DNA of 39,886 nt. Origin: Saprospiraceae bacterium. Lineage in GTDB: Bacteria; Bacteroidota; Bacteroidia; Chitinophagales; Saprospiraceae. Under the pieces are notes generated by a model. That model was not told the origin of the DNA. It did not search any database and saw only the letters and a list, made by a program, of their open reading frames with translations. The position numbers and the translations under genes were made by a program. Below, piece by piece: positions 33,375 to 38,131 of the stretch. Every line of letters begins with the position of its first letter. The stretch's first letter is position 1. The stretch lies in NCBI GenBank assembly GCA_022841745.1, contig JALHQW010000070.1, positions 1 to 39,886 on the forward strand, in the 5' to 3' direction.

Positions 33375-33885
33375 AAAAAAAACCCCCCTCCAAAACGTGG
33401 AGAGAGGCTATCCCAAAAACCGATTACATCTTTTGCTCTTTGGGGTGGCAAAGAAAGTTATGATTCCATGGCCTGCCATTGGGACGGGGAAACAGGCCGC
33501 ACTGCCAATCTGATTGGCAGTAATTGGATAGATTTGTTTCAAGAGTTAGTGGGCAACACCACCGATTGCATCAAAATGTCCTGTGGCTGAACAATGGAGG
33601 GTAACTGTGAGAAAAAATGGATGAGAAGCTCGGCTACAATTGGTTGTGAGATGTCTTTTGTACAAAAATCGGTTGTCGAGATAGGTAACTTACTAAAAAC
33701 GGTGTTGCTTAATTGGTCAGATGTCCTTCCGGCTTCTCATCACGCTCTTACGTTGGTAAACAGTCCTTTCATGTTCACAGGAATTTTAATAGATTACTTA
33801 AAAAATCGAGCCAAAAGTAGCTGCTCCTTTCGAATGCACCAAGTATTTGTAAAAAAATAATTTCAAAATGGCTGGCATCGGGTAT

Positions 33886-34157
33886 GGGGACAGGGGTTTT
33901 CGGGTTTGGGGGTTTGGGGGTTTTCGGGTTTGGGGGTTTGGGGGTTTTCGGGTTTGGGGGTTTTCGGGTTTGGGGGTTTGGGGGTTTTCGGGGGGGGCGG
34001 GTTTTCAGGTTCTTGGGGGTGGCTTCAATAGCCGATTACGAGAAAGTAGGTTTTAGAAAAAAACTTTGGAATTTTGTCAACAACAGTCGATTAGACGTAG
34101 GCATCCCTGAAAACCCGAAAACCCCAAAACCCCAAAACCCGAAAACCCTGTCCCCCC
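33886..34157. repeat. G-rich 24-bp array with inverted C-rich partner
   Basis: The left arm 33886-34009 starts ggggacagggg, holds three 24-nt units of cgggtttgggggtttggggg plus tttt (and a 16-nt partial unit), and ends cgggttttcagg. The right arm 34106-34157 is the same block in inverse orientation, shorter and with four-G/four-T words. About 96 bases lie between. The G runs (3-5 G every 3-4 T) should form G-quadruplexes, and the arms together could form a long hairpin. Confidence 0.85.
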
Positions 34158-34750
34158 ATTACGGTACCCCCTAAAACGCAGAACCCCTTCCTGGATAACC
34201 CAGAAAGAGGTCTTGCGTGTTCTCAAGGGATTACAAATTGCATCTTAGGCATTGCCAGCCTAGGAAAAATCCAGTATCAGTACAGGCAATACACGTTTCT
34301 TCATCGGTAAAGGGATGTATTGCAAACCTTGAGAATGCCCATTAGGGGCGTTTTGAAATCGGATTGGGAAATTTTTAGTGCAGCAGGGAGTTCAGGCCCT
34401 ACAGTGTTCTATAGTGAATTCTTAGTGTAGCATCTCAGCAAAATACGCTGGGTGAGGTAGGCCTTATCTTCGGCCTCAGTCTGTCAAATTTTACGAGTGT
34501 CCAATGTGGTGTGTGTCCTAAATCGGGCACAAGGTATGCATTTCTTCCAATCTTGTATAGACCCAAGGCATTTTTTTTAATACTTATTTCAACAAATATT
34601 TATTAGTTAGATAAAAATACCTGAGTTTAGCTTTTGTGGTAGCCTCTAAAAAAAATATTCAAGATGCTGTAAATCAGCTGTTTATACATTTATAGTTACA
34701 ATTTTAACGCAAAACTTCAGTTTTTTTTAACCTCATCTCTGGCACAAGTT

Positions 34751-34782
34751 TTGAACTTTTCTTCCATAGACTTGTATATTTG
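34751..34782 (+). promoter_or_regulatory. Promoter of the cysteine operon leader
   Basis: TTG at 34751-34753, 21 bases, TATATTTG at 34775-34782. This is a consensus Bacteroidota promoter whose transcript would begin about 10-15 bases before the leader peptide start. Confidence 0.7.
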
Positions 34783-34802
34783 TCAAGTTTCAATTTTCAA
34801 AA

Positions 34803-34874
34803 ATGACGCAAATCCAATTCATCGCATGTTGTTGTTGTACCTACCCGGCAGGGAAGGGCAGCGGCATGTCGTGA
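34803..34874 (+). CDS. Cys-rich leader peptide of the cysM operon
   Basis: A 23-codon frame, MTQIQFIACCCCTYPAGKG and so on to a TGA at 34872. Four consecutive TGT cysteine codons lie at 34827-34838. It sits between a consensus promoter and an intrinsic terminator, directly upstream of a cysteine synthase gene. This is the layout of transcription attenuation leaders: a ribosome short of Cys-tRNA would stall on the Cys run. A possible antiterminator helix supports it. gcagggaagg at 34848-34857 can pair with cctttccgtgc at 34910-34920 (about ten pairs, one G-U, one bulge), and this would break up the terminator stem. A ribosome reaching the stop codon would cover 34848-34857 and let the terminator form. 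Confidence 0.8.
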   Translation: MTQIQFIACCCCTYPAGKGSGMS

Positions 34875-34902
34875 TGAATTGTAGCAATAATCCATCAAGT
34901 GC

Positions 34903-34939
34903 AAAAGCGCCTTTCCGTGCATACGGGAAGGCGCTTTTT
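34903..34939 (+). terminator. Attenuator terminator before cysM
   Basis: A 16-bp stem (34903-34918 with 34923-34938, one G-U pair), loop gcat, then a T run. It lies after the leader peptide and 47 bases before the cysM start, so it would end the transcript before the operon unless disrupted. Confidence 0.88.
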
Positions 34940-34985
34940 GTTTTGCCCCCTTCAAACTTTGTACTTTTTACTTTTTACTTCCTAT

Positions 34986-35951
34986 ATGAATGCCATGACC
35001 ACATCCCTGTTGCTTCCATCCGTTTCCGCAGCCGAAAAGACGCTTCAAGTCGGCCAACTCGTCGGCAAGACGCCGCTGTACGAAATCCGCAATGCCTATC
35101 ACAAGCCTGGCGTGCGCATCTTCGCCAAGCTGGAATGGCAGCAGCTTGGTGGCAGCGTGAAGAGCCGCCCCGCCTTCAACATCATAAAGAATGCCCTGCG
35201 GGACGGACACCTGGGCAAGGGCCAGCACCTACTCGACGCCACCAGCGGCAATACGGGTATCGCCTACGCCGCCATTTGCGCAGCACTCAAAATCCCTTTG
35301 ACCCTCTGCCTCCCCGAAAACGCCTCGGAAGAACGCAAGCGTATTCTAAGGGCATTGGGCGTGAACATCCATTTCACCTCCCGTTTCGATGGGACGGACG
35401 GCGCACAGCTGGAAGCCAAGCGTCTCTACCGGGAGCAGCCCGACCGCTATTTCTACGCCGACCAGTACGCCAACGACCACAATTGGCGGGCGCACTACGA
35501 AACCACCGCCCCCGAAATCTGGCAGCAGACCTGCGGCAAAATCACCCACTTTGTGGCAGGGCTGGGCACCACTGGCACTTTCATGGGCACAGGCCGTGGC
35601 CTCAAGATGTTCAACAACGACATTGAACTCATCGGCCTGCAACCGGACAACCCCATGCACGGCCTCGAAGGCTGGAAACACTTAGAGACGGCCATCGTCC
35701 CTAAAATTTATGATGGGAGCATAGCCGACCGCTTCCTCGAAATTGACACCCTCGAAGCCTACGACATGGTGCGCTTGCTGGCGCATACAGAGGGTCTGCT
35801 CGTCAGCCCCAGCGCTGCTGCCAACTTGTTGGGAGCCATCAAGGTTGCGGAGCAAATAGAAGAAGGCCCCAATGGGGCAAGCATCATCGTCACCACCTTC
35901 GCCGACAATGCAGAGAAGTATTCGGAGGTGATGAACCATATTTTTGGTTGA
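34986..35951 (+). CDS. cysM: Cysteine synthase, CysM-like
   Basis: 321 residues from the ATG at 34986 (34995 is the alternative). A PLP enzyme that joins sulfide or a protein thiocarboxylate to activated serine. The PLP lysine is in GGSVKSR (about K59), the substrate loop is TSGNTG, the phosphate-binding loop is GLGTTGTFMGTGR, and the C-terminal serine that contacts the PLP ring is in VSPSAAANL. The MGTGR block and the neighbouring genes match M. tuberculosis CysM, which uses O-phosphoserine and CysO-thiocarboxylate. From memory, the Arg of that enzyme that holds the phosphate (R220) aligns with a lysine here (EGWKHLE), a conservative change. First gene of the operon, preceded by the attenuator. 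Confidence 0.92.
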   Translation: MNAMTTSLLLPSVSAAEKTLQVGQLVGKTPLYEIRNAYHKPGVRIFAKLEWQQLGGSVKSRPAFNIIKNALRDGHLGKGQHLLDATSGNTGIAYAAICAALKIPLTLCLPENASEERKRILRALGVNIHFTSRFDGTDGAQLEAKRLYREQPDRYFYADQYANDHNWRAHYETTAPEIWQQTCGKITHFVAGLGTTGTFMGTGRGLKMFNNDIELIGLQPDNPMHGLEGWKHLETAIVPKIYDGSIADRFLEIDTLEAYDMVRLLAHTEGLLVSPSAAANLLGAIKVAEQIEEGPNGASIIVTTFADNAEKYSEVMNHIFG

Positions 35952-36042: not shown

Positions 36043-36498
36043 ATGAGCGACTTAATCGTAAACCTCAGTGAAGAAGCCGTTGAAGTCATCAACGACGACG
36101 CCATTAGTGCCTTCCCGAACGAATGCTGCGGCTTTCTTTACGGAACGGAATCGGCAGACGGCAGTAGGCAAATCACCCTCGCCGTGCCCGTGACCAACAG
36201 CAAGGAGGGCGACCAGCGCCGTCGTTTTGAGATTTCACCCTTGGACTACCTGCGGGCCGAGCAGTTTGCCCTGCAAAACGACACGGCGCTCCTCGGCGTC
36301 TATCACTCGCACCCCAACCACCCGGCCATTGCCTCCGAGCACGATTTGGCCGTGGCCATGCCCTATTTCTCCTACGTCATCGTATCTGTGATGAACGGTG
36401 AAATCGCCGACCACAAAAGCTGGCGGCTCAAGGACGAGGAGCGGTCGTTCGTGGAGGAGCAAGTTCATTTAACGGCTACCGAATCCATTTTGAATTAA
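36043..36498 (+). CDS. mec: JAMM/MPN metallopeptidase, Mec-like
   Basis: 151 residues, a single JAB/MPN domain of the M67 family. The zinc site is complete: the glutamate in FPNECCGFLYG (near residue 27) and HxHx10D in YHSHPNHPAIASEHD (near residues 87-101). In M. tuberculosis the homologous Mec releases cysteine from the CysO-cysteine adduct; related bacterial JAMM enzymes also trim ubiquitin-like carriers. Its place between cysM and the carrier gene supports that role. Here it could have two jobs, since the carrier ends in an extra residue. Spacing to cysM is ~90 bp with tcaacc-type repeats. Confidence 0.92.
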   Translation: MSDLIVNLSEEAVEVINDDAISAFPNECCGFLYGTESADGSRQITLAVPVTNSKEGDQRRRFEISPLDYLRAEQFALQNDTALLGVYHSHPNHPAIASEHDLAVAMPYFSYVIVSVMNGEIADHKSWRLKDEERSFVEEQVHLTATESILN

Positions 36499-36635: not shown

Positions 36636-36911
36636 ATGGCAAAAATTATCATCCCGACGCCTTTGCGTAAATTTACCGACAATCTCAGCTCGTTTGAAAC
36701 GAATGGGACTACTGTTCAAGAAGCCATCGAGCAACTGACCCAGACTCACACGGGCCTGGAACGGCACCTGCTCGACGACAACCGCAATATCCGCTCCTTT
36801 ATCCGGGTCTATCTCGGTGAGGAGGATATCAACTCCTTGGAAAAAGGAGCGACTGCCGTTGCGCCAAATGCGGTGATTAGCATCGTGCCGGCTATTGCAG
36901 GAGGCATTTAA
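36636..36911 (+). CDS. cysO: CysO-like sulfur-carrier protein
   Basis: 91 residues with the ubiquitin-like MoaD/ThiS fold. Start MAKIIIPTPLRKFTDNLSS, a middle RSFIRVYLGEEDI, and the end AISIVPAIAGGI all align with M. tuberculosis CysO from memory. Such carriers take sulfur as a C-terminal Gly thiocarboxylate. Here the Gly-Gly is followed by one more residue, Ile, before the TAA. The charging step needs a free C-terminal glycine, so a protease, most simply the adjacent JAMM enzyme, would have to remove the Ile. The start follows short caatcaaa-type repeats. Confidence 0.9.
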   Translation: MAKIIIPTPLRKFTDNLSSFETNGTTVQEAIEQLTQTHTGLERHLLDDNRNIRSFIRVYLGEEDINSLEKGATAVAPNAVISIVPAIAGGI

Positions 36912-36994: not shown

Positions 36995-38131
36995 ATGAAT
37001 ACCAGTCTAACTCCCGCCGAAATGGCCCGGTACGCACGGCATATCGCCATCCCGGAATTCGGCTTGCAGGGACAAGAAAAACTAAAGGCGGGCCGAGTGC
37101 TCGTCATCGGCAGTGGGGGCCTTGGCAGCCCGGTGCTGCTCTACCTCGCCGCTGCCGGGGTCGGTCATATCGGCATCGTGGACTTTGATACCGTGGACGA
37201 TAGCAACCTACAGCGCCAAGTGCTTTTCACCACGGATGACATCGGGAAGTCCAAGGCGGAAAAAGCCAAGGAACGGCTACTGGCGCTGAACCCCCACCTC
37301 GACATCGTGGTGTACAAGACCCGATTCACCCGGGAGAATGCGCTCGACCTCGTGAAGGACTACGATGTGGTGGCCGATGGCACCGACAATTTCCCGACCC
37401 GCTACCTCGTCAACGACGCCTGTGTGCTCGCCGGGAAGGTGAACGTCTATGCCTCCATCTTCCAGTTCGAGGGGCAGGTCTCCGTCTTCAACTACCCCTT
37501 GGCCGACGGCAGCCGTGGCCCGAATTACCGGGACATGTTCCCAGAACCACCACCTCCTGGCCTCGTGCCCAATTGCGCCGAAGGCGGCGTGCTCGGCGTT
37601 TTGCCTGGCATCATCGGCTCCATGCAGGCCAGCGAAGTCATCAAGGTGCTGACGGGCGTGGGCGAACCCCTCGTCGGGCGGCTATTCCTCTTCGATGCGG
37701 CGAGCTTCATGACACGTATATTAAAGGTGCAGAAAAGCCCCGACACGAAAATCACGGAACTCATCAACTATGAGCAGTTCTGCGGCCTCGAATCGCCCAG
37801 CGAACTGCGGCCCGTGAAAGAAATAACGGTGCAAGAACTGTACGACTGGCAAGTGCAAGGCGCTGATTTTCAATTGATTGACGTGCGGGAACCCCACGAA
37901 TACGCCGTTGCCAACCTTGAAGGGGAACTGATTCCCCTCGGCACGGTCAGTGCGGCCGCCCATCGTATTTTAAAGGATAAAAAAGTGGTCGTCCACTGTC
38001 GCAGCGGGGTGCGAAGCGCCAAGGCCATTCGTGAACTGGAAGACTTGTTCGGGTTCGAGAACCTGTACAACCTGAAAGGGGGGATTCTGGCTTGGGCGAA
38101 AGAGGTGGATGCGAGTGTGCCAGCGGTTTGA
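36995..38131 (+). CDS. moeZ: MoeZ-like E1 adenylyltransferase with rhodanese
   Basis: 378 residues from the ATG at 36995; an upstream TTG reading crosses caatcctt repeats. The N-terminal ThiF/MoeB E1 domain has the nucleotide loop VLVIGSGGLGSP, the Arg-containing NLQRQ block, DGTDNFPTRYLVND, and the catalytic cysteine region NCAEGGVLG. The C-terminal rhodanese domain has the active loop HCRSGVRS near residue 330. It would adenylate the carrier's C-terminal Gly and hand it sulfur from its rhodanese cysteine. The zinc cysteines of classical MoeB (CxxC pairs) are replaced (NYRD; no second pair), as I recall for mycobacterial MoeZ, whose phrases NYRD...PEPPPPG and KITEL..YEQFCG are matched here. 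Last gene of the operon. Confidence 0.93.
   Translation: MNTSLTPAEMARYARHIAIPEFGLQGQEKLKAGRVLVIGSGGLGSPVLLYLAAAGVGHIGIVDFDTVDDSNLQRQVLFTTDDIGKSKAEKAKERLLALNPHLDIVVYKTRFTRENALDLVKDYDVVADGTDNFPTRYLVNDACVLAGKVNVYASIFQFEGQVSVFNYPLADGSRGPNYRDMFPEPPPPGLVPNCAEGGVLGVLPGIIGSMQASEVIKVLTGVGEPLVGRLFLFDAASFMTRILKVQKSPDTKITELINYEQFCGLESPSELRPVKEITVQELYDWQVQGADFQLIDVREPHEYAVANLEGELIPLGTVSAAAHRILKDKKVVVHCRSGVRSAKAIRELEDLFGFENLYNLKGGILAWAKEVDASVPAV

Follow-up and report, generated by a model that had tools for sequence, protein, structure and literature searches.

The window analysed here is the whole stretch of 39,886 nucleotides (nt) of contig JALHQW010000070.1 from a Saprospiraceae bacterium. Within it, a short reading frame with a run of cysteine (Cys) codons and an intrinsic terminator precede a cysteine synthase gene, an arrangement that suggests attenuation by cysteine. 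The leader contains the following features:

34803..34874, + strand: leader peptide frame of 23 codons, MTQIQFIACCCCTYPAGKGSGMS* (ATG at 34803, TGA at 34872–34874), with counterparts in relatives
34827..34838, + strand: four consecutive Cys codons (TGT x4) within the leader frame, the regulatory codons
34815..34881, + strand: protector hairpin (1:2), in which the Cys codons of an untranslated leader are base-paired to the antiterminator strand; −33.9 kcal/mol alone
34848..34862, + strand: antiterminator 5' strand (segment 2), pairing with 34907–34920; position and pairing conserved in relatives
34903..34944, + strand: intrinsic terminator, from sequence and folding, with its stem at 34903–34938 (segments 3 and 4) and a T-rich tail

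An earlier, sequence-only reading of this DNA had named a 23-codon frame with four TGT codons in a row and a strong terminator directly before a cysteine synthase gene, and both are present as described. The terminator (34903–34938) has 16 pairs and a 4-base loop, is followed by TGTTTTG, and folds with −25.2 kcal/mol by itself; 47 nt separate the end of its stem (34938) from the ATG of cysM (34986). The pairing that had been proposed between a segment past the Cys codons and the 5' arm and loop of the terminator is also found, as a duplex of 34848–34862 with 34907–34920 (−23.6 kcal/mol), which is stronger than those of dinucleotide-shuffled spacers (p 0.005 with 200 shuffles, 0.006 with 500). 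The leader RNA as a whole folds with −64.2 kcal/mol against a shuffle mean of −41.45 (z −5.48). As in a ribosome-mediated attenuator, codons for the amino acid that the operon makes are clustered in a short frame, an intrinsic terminator lies ahead of the first gene, and the predicted antiterminator, which would exclude the terminator, is sited just 3' of a stalled ribosome. Runs of four TGY codons are not rare as DNA, with 124 places in this genome and 123 for the reversed pattern; the non-random part is the context of the Cys run, not the run itself. Rfam gave no T-box, riboswitch or other cis-element match in the whole window at gathering scores, and its three sub-threshold matches within 34650–35050 assign no family to the leader.

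The three classical states are reproduced by folding of the window leader. For a transcript that stops at the terminator loop, with its RNA free from 13 nt downstream of the first base of the A-site codon, the predicted fold contains the antiterminator when the ribosome stalls on Cys codons 1–3 (−30.8 kcal/mol) or codon 4 (−26.4). The terminator is predicted for a ribosome at the stop codon (−26.2), and the protector hairpin for untranslated RNA. The sequence-only reading had the antiterminator segment left free by a stall on the Cys codons, which the folding bears out, and covered by a ribosome at the stop codon, which by usual ribosome footprint sizes holds for the 3' part of 34848–34862 only. 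At equilibrium the full-length free RNA favours the terminator, so that the antiterminator can work only if it forms earlier, as in classical attenuators.

The terminator is followed by four genes, which from their domain matches appear to form a CysM-CysO-Mec-MoeZ-like operon:

34986..35951, + strand: CysM-like cysteine synthase, pyridoxal phosphate-dependent (PF00291, 1.4e-64; best NCBIfam match TIGR01138 cysM, 298.9 bits, under the cut-off of 394.2)
36043..36498, + strand: JAB/JAMM peptidase, Mec-like (PF14464, 2.4e-19; PDB 2kcq, Mov34/MPN/PAD-1 family, 4.2e-22)
36636..36911, + strand: ThiS/MoaD-like sulfur carrier, CysO-like (PF02597, 3.7e-10; best PDB matches 4n6e_B, ThiS/MoaD family, and 3dwg_C)
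36995..38131, + strand: MoeZ-like adenylyltransferase with a rhodanese domain (ThiF-rhodanese; PF00899 and PF00581; best NCBIfam matches MoeB/MoeZ, under cut-offs)

Thus a cysteine synthase, a sulfur carrier, a JAMM peptidase and an activating enzyme all stand together. Chain A of PDB entry 3dwg, whose chain C is among the best matches of the carrier, is labelled cysteine synthase B; we take 3dwg to be the mycobacterial CysM-CysO pair, and the gene set presumably resembles the mycobacterial CysM-CysO-Mec-MoeZ pathway.

Leaders before cysM homologues in relatives

Homologues of cysM were found in 23 of 60 genomes at E 1e-60, in 48 of 298 family genomes at 1e-75 and in 39 of 395 phylum genomes at 1e-80, with a query that began at 34989, one codon past the ATG at 34986. 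The set analysed comprises 84 loci (given L numbers) in 83 genomes, from which L019–L027 (one contig-cut, eight weaker matches), L070 (the same cut gene) and nine unfetched phylum matches are omitted. Two of the 84 (L052 and L065) have no usable upstream DNA, three are too short for a linkage call, 69 are operon-linked and 10 are unlinked. Linkage follows a permissive rule, a JAB-like match at most 500 nt behind cysM or a MoeZ-like match within 3.5 kb. A small frame counts as a leader if it lies within 600 nt upstream and has a run of three or more Cys, and hairpins carry a score of our own with a threshold of 15, 18 or 20 depending on the analysis.

A Cys-run frame lies upstream of 57 of the 69 operon-linked homologues, with a terminator in 46 and two such units in 26, and upstream of none of the 10 unlinked ones (frame plus terminator, linked versus unlinked: Fisher p 6e-5). 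All three loci too short for a linkage call have leaders. The sequence-only reading had asked for conservation among relatives, and this is found: the Cys run is conserved and is accompanied by alternative helices that are kept in position and match their own partners, as detailed below. Among 1797 control windows of the same loci, 41 contain a Cys-run frame and 12 also a terminator; eight of the 12 prove to be leaders of cysM in shortened loci, missed by the position rule, and four precede other sulfur genes. An initial background count gave 3 of 1247 windows, the individual matches not being inspected.

By label, 52 of the 80 named cysM loci belong to Bacteroidota or Balneolota, of which 38 have a frame and terminator, four a frame only and ten neither; the 28 with other labels contain one frame with terminator (L153, labelled Rhodopirellula), one frame only and 26 with neither. 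Three of the ten without a leader (L130, L146 and L172) have it further up, before a merged sulfite reductase-to-cysM operon. In these three loci (L130, 683–5379; L146, 1354–5829; L172, 921–5855; contig labels Flavobacteriales or Crocinitomicaceae), sulfite reductase-like, methyltransferase-like and cysM genes are consecutive behind one methionine (Met)-Cys leader. A siroheme synthase domain occurs in L130 and L172 and JAB in L146 and L172, and the reductase of L146 is split over two frames.

The pairing test compared the duplex of each spacer with its terminator 5' arm and loop against those of shuffled spacers. Among 93 cysM leaders, five without a called hairpin and ten scoring below 15 were set aside; of the 78 tested, 55 reach p <0.05 and 39 p <0.01 (median z −3.07). 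The corresponding numbers for 72 leaders of sulfite reductase genes, described below, are 48 and 11 (median z −2.29). The pairing strand of the cysM leaders begins a median of 10 nt past the last Cys codon. Its start falls 7–16 nt past that codon in 61 of 78 cysM and 58 of 72 sulfite reductase leaders, versus 21% and 23% of shuffled spacers.

The arms hardly vary among 14 close leaders aligned with MAFFT, and co-variation was therefore tested across genera by permuting arms. Spacers pair better with their own terminator arms than with exchanged ones (z −16.9 for cysM and −15.2 for sulfite reductase leaders; 0 of 5000 permutations as good in each set), and this holds when repeated arms are removed (z −16.1 for 66 cysM and −14.0 for 65 sulfite reductase leaders). 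Each spacer could pair with any arm, so that the tested pairing is not presupposed; related leaders are not independent.

Outside the Cys run, leader length and sequence vary widely among relatives. Frames without a detected terminator, some very short (MSCCCCCCS*), occur in L071, L072, L074, L076–L078, L124, L125 and L144; in L072 and L074 an ACCGG stretch past the stop codon recurs downstream as TTACCGGTA(A/C), and control there may work differently. Five loci of another phylum family (f33; L080–L082, L084 and L087) have six-Cys leaders with a longer Ala/Cys-rich tail and a weaker T-run hairpin (score ~15). L153 is a metagenome-assembled genome whose cysM is 56% identical to the query; its leader, MMSTTNMCCCCCCPLDRASLRMRG, is Bacteroidota-like, and the genome is perhaps mislabelled.

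Leaders before other sulfur genes

The pattern TGTTGTTG-N30-60-GCCTTTCC, searched in 199 family genomes, occurs at 41 places in 35 genomes versus 22 for the reversed control. Four of 30 pattern loci fetched hold Cys leaders with a terminator, and one of them led to the leaders of sulfite reductase: two tandem Cys leaders precede a sulfite reductase-like gene, behind which lie uroporphyrinogen methyltransferase-, siroheme synthase domain- and PAPS reductase-like genes (named by eye, with no family search on them or on the reductase). Sulfite reductase is present in 69 of the 199 genomes; 67 loci were fetched, the other two being cut by contig starts, and two had <100 nt upstream. A Cys-run frame lies upstream in 53 of the 67, and 47 loci hold 72 terminator-bearing leaders. 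The window's own genome has two units in tandem at its sulfite reductase locus, of which the first is MISNNSNMCCYCCQITFTGFGMAAI, with an antiterminator at p 0.006. Outside the family, three of 25 fetched loci have a Cys/Met-rich frame and a terminator (12 further matches were unfetched). The longest run among the leaders counted, 11 consecutive Cys codons, stands before sulfite reductase in L211.

An O-acetylhomoserine sulfhydrylase-like gene, named by eye, has a match in 79 of 208 genomes searched. In 22 of 30 loci fetched, a small frame upstream has a run of no fewer than three Cys or Met; ten of these loci also have a terminator. The antiterminator is significant in L357, L358 and L366 (p 0.002) and in L360 (p 0.018), and not significant in L337 (p 0.87), L339 (p 0.40) and L342 (p 0.15); among the leader-bearing genes, the membership of this one is the least certain. 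Controls in the same family gave no leader with a terminator in 30 loci of cysD (103 genomes with a match) and none in 30 of metX (85 genomes with a match), the metX control being weak because many metX loci have the sulfhydrylase gene immediately upstream.

The codon make-up follows the operon product. Sulfite reductase leaders have a Met at most four residues from the Cys run in 50 of 72 cases, cysM leaders in 7 of 77 (Fisher p 8e-15, in which independence is overstated as rows are related). An internal ATG ahead of the run could be a start codon, but a Met at most five residues past the run is likewise commoner in sulfite reductase leaders (24 of 72) than in cysM leaders (5 of 77). Among loci that have terminator-bearing leaders, two units in series are present at 28 of the 50 for cysM and at 25 of the 47 for sulfite reductase. 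On a quick tree of the 84 cysM homologues, on which 31 of 81 inner branches are weak and the state 'none' also covers loci whose Cys-run frame lacks a detected terminator, the tandem state changes 13 times, below all 500 shuffles. The tandem units, the further leaders in the genome and the Met codons go beyond the sequence-only reading.

Probable cysteine attenuation and its alternatives

Operon-linked conservation, matched pairing and the position of the antiterminator together support the cysteine attenuation that the sequence-only reading had proposed, and the Met codons beside Cys in sulfite reductase leaders count in the same direction. We therefore regard the window leader as very probably (about 0.88, judged from sequence comparison) an attenuator of transcription that works through the translating ribosome, with charged cysteinyl-tRNA as its signal and the cysM-JAB-cysO-moeZ operon under its control. 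When cysteine is ample, a ribosome translating the leader would reach its stop codon and mask part of the antiterminator strand; the terminator would then form in the cell, and transcription from the presumed start would end after ~150 nt. When cysteine is scarce, the ribosome would stall on the Cys codons and leave 34848–34862 free to pair with the terminator 5' arm before the 3' arm is made, and the polymerase would read on. Without translation, the Cys codons would pair with segment 2 and the terminator would form. The expected response is thus read-through on cysteine limitation.

Several observations weigh against this reading. Among the 69 operon-linked cysM loci, 12 lack a Cys-run frame, and 11 more have the frame but no terminator at threshold, five of these 11 having a weaker hairpin with a T run (score 14.6–16). 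The antiterminator misses 0.05 in 23 of 78 cysM leaders and in 24 of 72 sulfite reductase leaders. Cultured relatives that carry the leader are Flavitalea sp. BT771 (L159), Reichenbachiella agariperforans DSM 26134 (L115) and Pseudoflavitalea rhizosphaerae KACC 18655 (L133), and in L115 (p 0.06) and L133 (p 0.24) the antiterminator is not significant. In the window's own genome, neither the second sulfite reductase leader (MKNTMHCCCCCTAAMCCRTSERGVSQRKQ, p 0.65) nor the sulfhydrylase leader (MNQVKNMMMCCCTLSNQPEEAGVPWH, p 0.12), which has a terminator, gives a significant antiterminator. The ribosome footprint edges used in folding are those of E. coli.

Stalling on the Cys codons might instead alter access to the cysM start codon, the hairpin being no working terminator. 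Such translational attenuation has been described for cysteine genes of M. smegmatis (PMC13236596), and Cys-run leaders without a detected terminator do exist (11 of 69 operon loci; Fodinibius L124 and L125). It is nevertheless improbable here, since a hairpin and T tract accompany the Cys-run frame in 46 of 57 operon loci and segment 2 matches its own terminator arm (no search was made for pairing with the cysM start region). We give slightly less credit to the same device answering another signal, in which the stall would reflect thiol oxidation or another stress that lowers Cys-tRNA; the sequence cannot separate the causes of low Cys-tRNA, yet the operons carry genes of cysteine and sulfide synthesis, and leaders include Met codons where the product can also go into methionine.

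A functional Cys-rich microprotein that binds metal or takes part in redox chemistry, with a terminator that merely ends its own transcript, would suit frames that hold as many as 11 consecutive Cys (L211). This is less likely again, as peptide length and sequence outside the run vary, whereas relatives retain the RNA pairing and its spacing from the run. Chance association of an ordinary terminator with a meaningless TGT repeat draws on the frequency of TGY repeats in the genome and can be dismissed: it is refuted by conservation, and it is at odds with the matched pairing and with the 12 of 1797 control windows that have frame and terminator, all of them before sulfur genes.

The E. coli trp and his leaders are the classical amino-acid attenuators. 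The cysteine attenuator proposed here is like them in having a regulatory-codon leader peptide, protector, antiterminator and terminator in the same order, and an amino acid that is the operon product; unlike them, it concerns cysteine (plus methionine in the sister leaders), is found in Bacteroidota and often has two complete units in series. Polycysteine short frames of mycobacteria were reportedly described by Canestrari in 2020. These share with our leaders a Cys-codon run in a short frame before cysteine genes, but the mycobacterial case is one of translation attenuation (PMC13236596), whereas an intrinsic terminator and an antiterminator are present here. Actinobacteria are known to have Cys leaders that lack a terminator (PMC1262725), and the window leader, which has a terminator, falls outside that class as described there; Cys-codon control would here be combined with intrinsic terminators, absent from the actinobacterial cases.

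Ribosome-mediated attenuation has been proposed for uORFC-8-2 before cysS in Rhodobacterales, which likewise has Cys codons inside a stem and then an intrinsic terminator, but differs in having two Cys codons, in preceding a tRNA synthetase gene and in belonging to Alphaproteobacteria (PMC8632094). Two short frames in one leader are also found in the tandem attenuators of Salmonella mgtCBR, where they answer different signals, ATP and proline (PMC3641672); here both units carry Cys runs and their own terminators, and one signal is therefore expected. Within Bacteroidota, leader-peptide attenuation has similarly been proposed before amino-acid operons of Flavobacterium psychrophilum, the sole cysteine mention in the main text concerning a protease (PMC9723704), and Bacteroides thetaiotaomicron has leader-like short frames, none for cysteine in the main text (PMC7366714). 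The kind of mechanism is already known, and its theory has been treated (PMC1183508). Our literature search, of partial coverage, found no report of cysteine attenuation in Bacteroidota and does not settle priority.

More broadly, and with appreciably less confidence than for the window, we consider it probable that these leaders constitute a Bacteroidota regulon governed by sulfur amino-acid attenuation and developed furthest in Saprospiraceae, the label carried by the window's close relatives. Cys-only leaders would precede cysM-cysO operons and Cys-plus-Met leaders sulfite reductase operons and sulfhydrylase-like genes, the codon mix matching what the product feeds; two complete same-signal attenuators in series, as often found, would make overall read-through the product of two probabilities and the response steeper. 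If so, the leaders identify, across a large phylum, a set of sulfur operons under codons that report cysteine alone or cysteine plus methionine, and permit a direct test of why an organism places two one-signal attenuators in series.

Promoter region

Two further features lie upstream of the leader frame:

34751..34782, + strand: probable promoter by sigma-70 rules, TTGAAC-N18-TATATT, a match not above shuffle expectation
34740..34760, + strand: upstream element TGGCACAAGTTTTGAACTTTT in the promoter region, conserved within the genus

The sequence-only reading had called the promoter a consensus one, which overstates a sigma-70 match of 9/12; the scanned region holds six such sites versus 5.2 expected from shuffles, which is not significant alone. 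Within it, TATATTTG at 34775–34782 fits TAnnTTTG, which we take to be the Bacteroidota promoter motif. The form TGGCAYA-N3-TTTGAACTTTT of the upstream element is present in eight of nine same-genus leaders, the window counted and L011 being the exception, and presumably resembles a sigma-54 −24/−12 site, save for GA where GC is expected. The genome has two exact copies of TGGCAYANNNTTTGAAC and 11 at one mismatch or fewer, versus 5 for the control. Further 5' of the leader, open frames at 33868–34056 contain a repeated GFRVWGF-like motif, which suggests a short tandem repeat in the DNA.
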